Below are positions 9,650 to 13,701 of a stretch of DNA of 64,000 bases, in pieces. The translations under genes were made by a program, and so were the position numbers. Positions within the stretch are counted from its first letter, which is position 1; each line of letters opens with the position of its first letter. The DNA is from Komagataeibacter medellinensis NBRC 3288 (GTDB lineage: Bacteria > Pseudomonadota > Alphaproteobacteria > Acetobacterales > Acetobacteraceae). The stretch covers positions 375,001-439,000 of the forward strand of contig NC_016027.1 in NCBI RefSeq assembly GCF_000182745.2, given 5' to 3'. Under the pieces are notes generated by a model that made no database searches, had not been told where the DNA came from, and worked only from the letters and a program-made list of their open reading frames with translations.

Positions 9650-10662
9650 AAGTGCTGAACTGACTTATTGTCAATGACGGTTATAAAGATAAATAACCTA
9701 CCAGAGCGGCAGGGGGTCGCACGGTTTTTCACATGAACACCTGCTGTCATGGGTTCGTCAAGAATGACGGGCGTTATAACGCGGCTTTCGCAAGTCTTTA
9801 TGCTCAGGAATGCCACTATATTTGTTCAAAGTGCATGATGCCCGGAAAGGGCAGGTGGGAATATTCGATATCGCCGCACCTGCCCGATCACAGTGTATTG
9901 ACACACACGGATTATGCCACGGTTCATGTCCAGTGATGTCTGTCAGGGTCCATATCTGTTACGGGACATGATGTAATATGGCTGGTATGCGTTGGACGTA
10001 TTGGTTAAAGGGTCTGTCTACTCTTCATGATGGCTGCCCTGGGGGAAGGGATCTCTTTTATATGATGGAACACAGGCAGTACATCTGATCACGGGAAGTA
10101 TTTGAATTTATCCGGCTACTGCATTTATACGCTCGTTATAATCATGAAAACACAGGGTCATTTTCATAATTGCGCATGAATGCTGCAATGGTGACGGATG
10201 CTTTTTGCAACGGACAATGGTATTGTCGAATGATCAGGGAAGGGACGATATGTCTTAAATATATAATACAGAAATTTTGCGTGCCATGTACAGAGATACA
10301 TGCGGGATTTATTTTTGATGCCCGAACTGGACCTGTATCAGGCACAAAATTATCGATAGATATAATAAGAATTTTTTAATTTTATTAAAAGGTTTGATAA
10401 TAATATCTATTTTTGTTCAATGGTCGTAAACGAAAATTGCATATAAGGGAAAAATTCGTTATTGGCTGGCATATTAGTTCCTATTCATGCCAGCTAGACA
10501 TGTCGGGTAGAATGCCTTGCAACCTATGTTAGAAAACATGCGCCGTCTGCCTGTAATTGGTATGGCATAAAAATACGGATAAAATGCTTTATTATGGTTG
10601 CATAATAGACCCATGATTATTACTGATAGGGAAGATGAGTCCCTTAATGGCAATCGACAGAG
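9650..10662. other. Gene-poor, AT-rich interval
   Basis: About 1 kb with low GC, especially 10130-10620, and only short frames lacking ribosome sites. The right end (about 10480-10662) should be the original upstream region of the mucR-type gene, because the IS66 insertion split the two. It contains AGAGGAAAG at 10659-10667, a probable ribosome-binding site now stranded from its gene. Confidence 0.5.
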
Positions 10663-10670
10663 GAAAGAAC
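10663..10670. repeat. Target-site duplication, left copy
   Basis: GAAAGAAC immediately precedes the left inverted repeat of the IS66 element and is identical to 13185-13192. IS66 elements duplicate 8 bp on insertion. Confidence 0.95.
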
Positions 10671-10726
10671 GTAACCGGCCGTTTGAGGCCGCCTTATGAT
10701 TGAGGATTGTGACTGGTAACTTACCG

Positions 10727-10762
10727 TCGTTAACGACGTCGTTAACGACGTCGTTATTGACG
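10727..10762. repeat. Three tandem copies of a palindromic 12-mer in the IS66 leader
   Basis: The unit GTCGTTAACGAC, itself a perfect palindrome, occurs at 10727-10738 and 10739-10750, with a third copy altered to GTCGTTATTGAC at 10751-10762. The array ends 17 bases before the tnpA start codon. It could bind a dimeric repressor such as TnpA, or fold in RNA to hide the tnpA ribosome site (GAGAGG at 10769-10774) from transcription entering from outside. Confidence 0.85.
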
Positions 10763-10779
10763 TCATTTGAGAGGTAAGA

Positions 10780-11139
10780 ATGACCCAGGAAATCCTGATT
10801 GGCGTTGAACGCCGCCGCCGCTGGTCGGATGAACGGAAGCTGGCGATACTGGCTGAAGTTGGTGTGGATGGAGCAAGTGTATCGGATGTGGCACGTCGAC
10901 ATGACCTGACCCGCCAACATCTTTACCAATGGCGGACGTCATTCCGTCAAAGACTATCTTCCCCAGATCAGTCTGTGGCGTTTGTTCCTGTTGCTTCAGT
11001 GACGACACCTGCTGTGGCATCTGGCGGTGATCCTGACGAACTGGCCATAGTGCTGCGCAATGGCCGTAGTATCAGGGTGACGGGACATCCTGCCGAAGAT
11101 CTTCTGGCCCGGGTCATCCGGATTGCGGAGACGGCATGA
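10780..11139 (+). CDS. tnpA: IS66 accessory protein TnpA (Orf1), helix-turn-helix
   Basis: The product of 119 residues has an N-terminal IS66 Orf1/IS3-Orf-A-like helix-turn-helix (residues about 10-55: RRRWSDERKLAILAEV, then VSDVARRHDLTRQHLYQWR). The C-terminal half (ELAIVLRNGRSIRVTGHPAEDLLARVIRIAE) is typical of IS66 TnpA. AGAGG lies six bases before the ATG. Its stop overlaps the tnpB start as ATGA, so the two are translationally coupled. TnpA is required for efficient IS66 transposition, although its exact role is unsettled. Confidence 0.92.
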   Translation: MTQEILIGVERRRRWSDERKLAILAEVGVDGASVSDVARRHDLTRQHLYQWRTSFRQRLSSPDQSVAFVPVASVTTPAVASGGDPDELAIVLRNGRSIRVTGHPAEDLLARVIRIAETA

Positions 11140-11483
11140 TTGGCGTGGGCAACGGCGTGCGTGTCTATCTGGCCTGCGGGGTGACCGATATGCGCAAGGG
11201 CATATCGGGTCTGGCAGCACTGGCACAGGACGTGCTGCGTCAGAACCCGACATCAGGGGCGCTCTTTGCCTTTCGTGGTCGCCGTGGGGACAGGATCAAG
11301 CTTCTGATGTGGGACGGTCAGGGGTTCTGTCTTTATTACAAGGTGCTTGAGAAGGGACGTTTTCCATGGCCGTCTCCGGCAGAGGGCGTTGCACGCCTGA
11401 CGACAGCACAGATGGCCATGCTGTGGGAAGGCATGGAGTGGAGACGCCCTTCCTGGTCTGCACCACCGTCTCGCGTGGCCTGA
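11136..11483 (+). CDS. tnpB: IS66 accessory protein TnpB (Orf2)
   Basis: The 115-residue product carries the IS66 Orf2-like signature: VRVYLACGVTDMRKGI, then SGLAALAQDVL, GALFAFRGRRGDRIKLLMWD, GFCLYYKVLEKGRFPWP. The reading frame begins within the last codons of tnpA (ATGA overlap). Length and motifs match the family, so it looks functional. The name TnpB here refers to the IS66 protein, not the RNA-guided nuclease of IS200/IS605 elements. Confidence 0.92.
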   Translation: MIGVGNGVRVYLACGVTDMRKGISGLAALAQDVLRQNPTSGALFAFRGRRGDRIKLLMWDGQGFCLYYKVLEKGRFPWPSPAEGVARLTTAQMAMLWEGMEWRRPSWSAPPSRVA

Positions 11484-11546
11484 TTTTTATGGCGTGAGAG
11501 TGCAGAACATTTTGAATTTTCTTAGGTTTTCTGCTATTTTTTCATA

Positions 11547-13157
11547 ATGACGTCTGCACCTGCGGTCCTGCCTGATGATCCGGATACCCTGAGGGAAATG
11601 ATTGTTTCCCTGCAGACCGAAGTGGCTCGGCTTTCTGCGTCAGCCCGTGCGTATGAAGCTCTTGTCCAGTCTCTCAAAATCCGGATCGCACGTCTTCAGA
11701 AACAGAAATTCGGGGCCAGTTCAGAAAAGATAGACCGTGAGATTGAACAACTCGAACTGCTCCTTGAAGATGTAAAAATCGCCATCGCGGCAGCCGATCC
11801 TTCTCCTGATATCAGGGAGCATGATGTCAGCGATGATGCACTCTCTCCCCCACGGCAGCGTGGCAAACCAAAGGTTTCTGACACGACACCACGGGAGCGT
11901 ATTGTTCTCGACCCAGGTGAGGCCTGTCCTGCCTGTGGCGGTCCCCTGCGTCTTGTAGGCGAAGATGTCACCGAAATACTGGACTTTATTGCGGCAAAAC
12001 TGAAAGTTGTCGAAACGGCACGGCTGAAGAAATCCTGCCGTCACTGCGAAACACTGGTGCAGCCTGAAGCACCGTCGCGCCCTGTCCCACGGGGGATGGC
12101 TGGCACCGGGCTTTTAGCCCATATCCTGGTCTCGAAATTCGATGACCACATTCCGCTTTATCGTCAGAATGAGATCTTTGCCCGTCAGGGTGTGGACATT
12201 CCCCGTTCAACCCTGATCGACTGGTGTGGTCAGGCCGTTGCCGTTCTGCGTCCTCTGACAGATCTGATCCGTCAGGATGTCGTAAAGGCAGACCTGCTAC
12301 ATGCTGATGATACACCCATCCAGGTTCTTGACCCCCGTCTGCGTCAGGCTGGCAAACCCCGGGGCGTGAAGGAAGGGCGGATCTGGAGCTATCTGCGCGA
12401 TCCCCGCCCATGGGGAGGGAGTGATCCGCCCGCCGTGGCCTACTGGTTCTCTCCCGATCGCAAGGGGATCAATCCCCAGACCCATCTGGCACAGTTCCGG
12501 GGCATTCTGCAGGCTGACGCCTACGCCGGGTTCAGGGATCTGTATAAACCAGACGCAACAGGAACCGTGCACGTGCGCGAAGCGGCCTGCTGGGCTCATC
12601 TCCGCCGGGCCTTCCATGATGTCTGGAAGGGCAGTGATTCGACAATCGCAAGGGAAGCACTTGAACAGATCGGAGAGCTCTACGATATCGAGCGCCAGAT
12701 CACCGGACACCCGGCCCCGTATCGTCTGGCTGTCCGACAGGAACAAAGCCGCCCCCGTGTCACAGCATTCCACGCATGGTGCGAAACACAGCTTGCCCGT
12801 ATCCCTGGAAAGGGGGAACTGGCAAAAGCGATCCGTTATGCGCTCAACCGGTGGAAGGCCTTTACCCTGTTCCTCGAAGATGGTCGTGTCGCCATCGACA
12901 ACAATCCTGCCGAACGCGCCATACGGCCCGTATGCGTGGGGCGAAAAAATTATCTCTTTGCCGGATCCGACACCGGGGGCGACAACATCGCTGATGCCAT
13001 GACGCTTATCGAAAGCGCAAAACTCTCCCGGCTTAATCCGCACGATTACCTCGCCGACGTCCTGGCCCGTATCAACGAGCACAAGATCAACCGGCTCCAC
13101 GAACTGTTGCCATGGAACTGGAAACCCGTGAATACACTGCACAGACAGGCCGCATAA
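11547..13157 (+). CDS. tnpC: IS66 transposase TnpC, DDE type
   Basis: The product of 536 residues is full length for IS66 transposases. An N-terminal coiled coil (residues about 10-75, EMIVSLQTEVARLSA and QKFGASSEKID) precedes a zinc-binding segment with CPACGG and CRHCE. The DDE core follows: first Asp in HADDTPIQVL, second Asp in LQADAYAGF, and Glu in DNNPAERAIRPV. The C-terminal IS66 domain ends near the stop, about 25 bases before the right inverted repeat. The gene starts 63 bases after tnpB. No frameshift is visible. Confidence 0.95.
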   Translation: MTSAPAVLPDDPDTLREMIVSLQTEVARLSASARAYEALVQSLKIRIARLQKQKFGASSEKIDREIEQLELLLEDVKIAIAAADPSPDIREHDVSDDALSPPRQRGKPKVSDTTPRERIVLDPGEACPACGGPLRLVGEDVTEILDFIAAKLKVVETARLKKSCRHCETLVQPEAPSRPVPRGMAGTGLLAHILVSKFDDHIPLYRQNEIFARQGVDIPRSTLIDWCGQAVAVLRPLTDLIRQDVVKADLLHADDTPIQVLDPRLRQAGKPRGVKEGRIWSYLRDPRPWGGSDPPAVAYWFSPDRKGINPQTHLAQFRGILQADAYAGFRDLYKPDATGTVHVREAACWAHLRRAFHDVWKGSDSTIAREALEQIGELYDIERQITGHPAPYRLAVRQEQSRPRVTAFHAWCETQLARIPGKGELAKAIRYALNRWKAFTLFLEDGRVAIDNNPAERAIRPVCVGRKNYLFAGSDTGGDNIADAMTLIESAKLSRLNPHDYLADVLARINEHKINRLHELLPWNWKPVNTLHRQAA

Positions 13158-13184
13158 TCAAGGCGGCCCAGAGCGGCCGGTTAC

Positions 13185-13192
13185 GAAAGAAC
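13185..13192. repeat. Target-site duplication, right copy
   Basis: GAAAGAAC directly follows the right inverted repeat and duplicates 10663-10670. It ends five bases before the TTG start of the mucR-type gene. Confidence 0.95.
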
Positions 13193-13197
13193 CGAAA

Positions 13198-13701
13198 TTG
13201 GATAATAAAGACATTCCGCATTCCGAACTGGTATCAATGACGACAGAGATCGTTGCAGCGCATACCAACCATAATACCGTTGCAATAGACCAGATCCCGC
13301 TACTCGTTGAGACAGTCTATGCTTCACTTAAGGGGCTTGGTGCTGAAAAGACGGTTGACCCCGCACCGCTGCAGCCCGCCGTGCCGATCAAGAAGTCCGT
13401 ATTCCCCGATTACGTGGTCTGTCTTGAAGACGGCAAGAAACTGAAGATGCTCAAGCGCCATCTGCAGACCGCTTATGGCATGACACCCGAACAGTATCGT
13501 GAAAAGTGGGGCCTGCCCGCCAATTATCCCATGACCGCACCGAACTATGCGGCCCATCGTTCCTCGCTGGCACAAAAGATTGGCCTGGGCCGCAAGGTTG
13601 TTGCGGCGCCTGAGCCTGAAGCGGTGGTGGAAGAACCCGCAAAGCCCGCGCGCAAGACCCGCGCACGCCGCAAGAAGGACACGGTCGAACTGGATGTGTA
13701 A
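13198..13701 (+). CDS. Ros/MucR-family transcriptional regulator
   Basis: The 167-residue product has the MucR layout: an N-terminal helical oligomerisation region (ELVSMTTEIVAAHTNHN, then IPLLVETVYASLKGL) and a C-terminal DNA-binding domain (VVCLEDGKKLKMLKRHL, then TPEQYREKWGLP and PNYAAHRSSLAQKIGLGR). In the zinc-finger position the second Cys is Asp and the last His appears to be Tyr, a variant seen in zinc-independent relatives of Ros. The tail is basic (ARKTRARRKK). Family members act as H-NS-like silencers of AT-rich DNA and of exopolysaccharide and motility genes. The start is a TTG with its likely ribosome site now beyond the IS66 insertion; an internal ATG at 13237 lacks a ribosome site but would spare most of the protein. 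Confidence 0.85.
   Translation: MDNKDIPHSELVSMTTEIVAAHTNHNTVAIDQIPLLVETVYASLKGLGAEKTVDPAPLQPAVPIKKSVFPDYVVCLEDGKKLKMLKRHLQTAYGMTPEQYREKWGLPANYPMTAPNYAAHRSSLAQKIGLGRKVVAAPEPEAVVEEPAKPARKTRARRKKDTVELDV

Follow-up and report, generated by a model that had tools for sequence, protein, structure and literature searches.

Insertion sequences (IS) are a described source of strain variation in Komagataeibacter, and the loss of cellulose production in this genus has been linked to them in the portions of the literature available to us (PMC7347698; PMC13028821). A comparable case is known from Sinorhizobium meliloti, whose widely used strains Rm1021/Rm2011 carry an IS in a regulator locus, expR102::ISRm2011-1, and are described, in the part of the source at hand, as expR-deficient (PMC2848241). 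As to regulators of the Ros/MucR family, MucR of Brucella is reported to repress its own gene and to bind several sites in its own promoter (PMC5881533). The locus that we describe here lies in K. medellinensis NBRC 3288, whose genome comprises 3,513,191 bases in 8 contigs, at positions 375001-439000 of contig NC_016027.1; this 64-kb stretch is referred to below as the window, and positions are counted from its first base. Like the cellulose cases it belongs to the same genus and concerns IS-driven strain variation, but those insertions fall in cellulose genes and have a known phenotype, whereas the IS described here adjoins a regulator without one. Like the S. meliloti strains, NBRC 3288 is a strain with an IS at a regulator locus, yet here the IS sits in the leader and leaves the coding sequence whole. 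With Brucella MucR the regulator shares its family, and autoregulation of the Komagataeibacter gene is putative. That an IS66 element has entered the leader of a conserved regulator gene is, as such, an event of a known and ordinary kind.

The insertion sequence occupies 10671-13184 (2514 bp) on the + strand, in the same orientation as the Ros/MucR gene that follows it. Everything that marks the IS66 family is present: terminal inverted repeats, which are imperfect and identical over their first 11 bases, the accessory genes tnpA (10780-11139, +; NF047595 IS66_ISRel24_TnpA, 90.5 bits against a cut-off of 74) and tnpB (11136-11483, +; PF05717, 132.4 bits; NF033819, 122.1 bits), the DDE transposase gene tnpC (11547-13157, +; PF03050, 328.2 bits; NF033517, 443.4 bits), and an 8-bp target duplication, the three products each scoring above the curated cut-offs of Pfam and NCBIfam. 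A target duplication of 8 bp is the value of the IS66 family. In its three-gene layout, terminal repeats and 8-bp duplication the element is like the IS66 group with ISRel24-type TnpA, from which we noticed no notable difference. Ahead of tnpA, at 10725-10750, repeated CGTCGTTAACGACG units make a strong terminator-like hairpin. The exact 8-bp duplications described in the original prediction were confirmed as GAAAGAAC at 10663-10670 (left copy, +) and 13185-13192 (right copy, +); as this sequence occurs just three times on the + strand of the window (10663, 13185 and 54715), its pairing exactly at both ends of the IS is not due to chance. A search of the genome with the element gave 16 rows, eight of them full copies with 100% identity and an exact 8-bp duplication at every one (8/8), and the other eight being 38-base matches to the element's own opposite strand. 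Since the eight full copies are identical and each is still bounded by its exact duplication, we conclude that the IS66 burst was recent, as had been proposed for the insertion at this locus. Two of the copies (L041 and L045) have the same target sequence and may therefore not be independent insertions; their near-identical flanks resemble, by eye, the transposase genes of another IS, which suggests a nested element that was later duplicated. Another identical copy (L040 1501-4014, G000:C3:3064378-3066891) splits a gene that has matches to TPR repeats in its right part. In the accessible part of an NBRC 3288 paper bcsCII is stated to be disrupted by an insertion sequence (PMC6528568), and we infer that this copy is the element in question. 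Outside the genome, 17 plasmid records match the element, nine of them over at least 80% of its length with 86.6-94.9% identity; eight of these near full-length relatives are on Acetobacter plasmids and one is on a Komagataeibacter plasmid.

The gene to the right of the element (13198-13701, +) has 167 codons, a TTG start and an intact reading frame. Its assignment to the Ros/MucR type was borne out by the domain search, in which the product matched PF05443 ROS_MUCR with 163.8 bits (cut-off 25.4) over profile positions 2-123 of 123, and by comparison with the Ros structure 2jsp (E 2.1e-25). The zinc ligands of Ros are two Cys and two His. The regulator lacks this ligand set, as it differs from Ros at the second and fourth ligand positions, the second Cys being Asp and the last His-His pair being Ala-Tyr. 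All seven Ros/MucR proteins of this genome that were compared (the product of 13198-13701 together with L001, L002 and L004-L007, a partial eighth match being left out) share the pattern CLEDG...RHL, in which Asp takes the place of the second Cys and neither position of the last pair is His. According to the title of a paper from 2009, some family members can dispense with zinc; zinc binding is thus no defining trait of the family, and the assignment based on the domain stands. In total the genome holds eight ROS_MUCR matches, namely the regulator described here and seven further ones, one of them partial, and, by a rough reading of the protein search across the genus, two other chromosomal Ros/MucR types may be widespread in it. 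A title search of the literature on Komagataeibacter, bacterial cellulose and acetic acid bacteria brought up no work on a Ros/MucR gene, and the word MucR is absent from the main text of the NBRC 3288 genome papers and reviews PMC6559206, PMC13028821, PMC7347698 and PMC6528568.

We compared the locus by protein search across 19 Komagataeibacter genomes including NBRC 3288, with one genome per species, among them K. rhaeticus LMG 22126 (G008) and K. oboediens LMG 18849 (G007). An orthologue was present in 18 of the 19, with 84-94% identity in the 17 relatives. In G002, a many-contig draft, the protein search found weaker paralogue-like matches but no orthologue, and the Ros/MucR leader was likewise not found. 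A wider family search of 150 genomes, at the strict limit of 1e-65, matched three and is uninformative on distant orthologues. In every relative that keeps the gene (17/17) the leader runs on into the gene without a break at the insertion point, so that the empty site anticipated in related strains exists throughout. Alignment to the 17 relatives delimits an AT-rich conserved leader at 10434-10636 (+), upstream of the IS, which is the putative control region of the Ros/MucR gene; GC content is 0.37 for 10401-10662 as against 0.59 for the window. Conservation is strongest from -80 to -40 before the TTG (10596-10636), where 30/40 columns are invariant in the 18 genomes, while 3/20 are invariant from -40 to -20 and, further upstream beyond -80, 0-6 per 20 columns. 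Searched genome-wide with up to three mismatches, the core of this block had no copy besides the locus itself. We infer that the block is the promoter/operator of the Ros/MucR gene.

This reading depends on where the gene starts. The TTG is kept in 18/18 genomes and is preceded by AGGAAAG in 18/18. If the gene instead began at the in-frame upstream ATG at 10613, the IS would interrupt coding sequence and not a leader; joining the flanks does give an open frame from this ATG through the TTG, and the ATG shows no variation in the alignment and shares the frame of the gene in 11/18 genomes. However, its frame is broken in the other 7/18 (L012, L013, L014, L017, L018, L023 and L025) by insertions of one base each at three distinct sites, and the codon pattern is absent upstream of the TTG, with variable columns distributed over the codon phases as 14/12/7 in the 63 upstream columns versus 2/1/10 over the opening 60 bases of the coding sequence. 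On these two grounds we rule out ATG 10613 as the true start and consider an interrupted coding sequence extremely improbable. Translation most likely starts at the TTG at 13198, with its conserved AGGAAAG, which makes the conserved DNA upstream of it a leader and control region.

The insertion displaces this leader by 2522 bp. Its right duplication ends five bases (13193-13197) before the TTG, as had been noted, and retains GAAAG, the part of the ancestral ribosome site AGAGGAAAG that is left; the site is trimmed and not fully removed. The original prediction that the gene was cut off from both its promoter and its ribosome site is thus upheld as regards the conserved leader, but overstated as regards the ribosome site. 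Predicted pairing with an assumed anti-SD tail falls from -8.6 kcal/mol for the ancestral site to -5.1 kcal/mol after the insertion; pattern searches for the 16S 3' end in the NBRC 3288 genome did not find it. Among 2000 random 20-mers of the window, 14.55% pair as strongly as the native site and 51.2% as strongly as the post-insertion site. The loss is clear against the ancestral site, and -5.1 kcal/mol is near the weakest native values, which span -5.7 to -10.4 kcal/mol in the 17 relatives, with 10/17 at -5.7 to -5.9. With a residual pairing so similar to what these 10 relatives have natively, translation may be little affected. The junction also contains a candidate hairpin, CGGTT (13178-13182)/AACCG (13190-13194), at 13178-13194 (+), spanning the right duplication. 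In a fold of 13140-13260 (121 nt) the CGGUU/AACCG hairpin was formed, with a z of -2.08 for the whole stretch and 3/200 shuffles as stable, and in a fold of a shorter stretch of 75 nt it was absent; having formed in one of two folds, it is uncertain. The 22 open codons before the TTG include no ATG, GTG or TTG, and the internal ATG at 13237, put forward earlier as another possible start, is present and in frame.

As to transcription, a consensus scan for E. coli-type promoters gave no + strand match between 11906 and the gene. The scan yielded two matches where a mean of 2.1 is expected by chance; a count at the chance level does not locate the native promoter and leaves room for another in the IS end. 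Terminator-like sites numbered seven on both strands of the region, against a mean of 2.8 in shuffles; on the + strand two such hairpins lie in the left IS end (10676-10691 and 10725-10750), while between tnpC and the TTG the scan found none. The IS runs in the direction of the gene, for which reason transcripts of tnpABC that continue into it would be the simplest transcript source. The explanation that we favor, and hold to be reasonably probable, is that a recent transposition brought in the IS66 element, oriented like the gene, and separated the conserved leader from the TTG start; that the gene thereby would have lost its own promoter and any self-regulation; that it would be weakly expressed from transcripts reading through tnpABC and translated from TTG 13198 and occasionally from ATG 13237; and that the strain would be hypomorphic or misregulated for one Ros/MucR protein, probably buffered by the paralogues. 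Judged from the sequence, the effect of the insertion is most likely a reduced or rewired, transposon-dependent expression.

Two other outcomes have to be weighed against this. The allele may be null, with too little read-through and too poor a ribosome site for any protein to be made, and the strain may simply do without it. Leader and ribosome-site core are displaced, and loss of the gene seems tolerated in G002, unless its draft assembly misses the gene; however, the frame is still open, the scan gave no + strand terminator-like site from tnpC to the gene, and the changes in its own lineage (three synonymous and three non-synonymous) are too few to indicate decay. Two sister lineages show seven synonymous and one non-synonymous change, and four and one, so the direction in NBRC 3288 would be towards more protein change, but the numbers are too few. 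A looser count (19 synonymous and 8 non-synonymous versus 16 and 1) ran in the same direction and was discarded, as it was polarised on two species and miscalled at least one ancestral state, that of codon 23. A null allele appears unlikely to us. Slightly less likely again is normal or even raised expression, in which transcription from or through the IS would be constitutive and GAAAG with the TTG would suffice for translation; the common orientation of tnpABC and the gene and the nearness of the residual pairing to native values in 10/17 relatives speak for it, whereas the two + strand hairpins of the left IS end and the possible hairpin at the ribosome site, present in the 121-nt and absent in the 75-nt fold, speak against it. 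Weak, transposon-dependent expression remains our preferred reading.

A different IS was noticed in the same leader in K. oboediens (G007; L015, L071), where it splits the leader roughly 120 bp ahead of the orthologous TTG; its terminus reads GAGCCTGATC, TAA is duplicated (3 bp), and the strongest leader block is left in place. The element resembles IS1031. In G002 (L068) an IS end like that of K. oboediens, 98% identical over 102 bases, adjoins the conserved neighbouring peptidase gene. An IS-linked lesion at the Ros/MucR locus is thus seen in 3/19 species genomes. Komagataeibacter genomes are rich in IS, with 50 to 181 counted in each of 18 genomes (PMC13028821); given this and the many-contig draft of G002, the three lesions may be due to chance or partly to an assembly gap. 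A bolder reading, which we regard as highly improbable, starts from the position of the IS immediately behind the Ros/MucR control region and in the orientation of the gene: the native, perhaps self-repressed promoter would now drive tnpABC together with the regulator as a feedback operon, bringing the mobility of the element under a host silencer, and the locus may in addition be one that IS elements hit repeatedly across Komagataeibacter.

The cellulose loss of NBRC 3288 is attributed, in the available portions of the relevant papers, to a deletion in bcsBI, given as 17 bp (PMC7347698) or 18 bp (PMC6559206), and revertants with 1-bp bcsBI deletions are reported to regain cellulose (PMC7347698, likewise in extract). 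If these revertants carried the IS66 insertion, then the insertion does not prevent cellulose synthesis. With seven further Ros/MucR matches in the genome and the cellulose loss ascribed to bcsBI, the change in a global regulon that the original prediction considered is hypothetical. NBRC 3288 has served in published studies of vinegar fermentation and of cellulose, and its genome has a leader insertion in a conserved regulator; if expression of this regulator is altered, results obtained with this strain may not transfer to other Komagataeibacter. At the same time, the natural leader-insertion allele offers a comparison for the study of Ros/MucR proteins in acetic acid bacteria.
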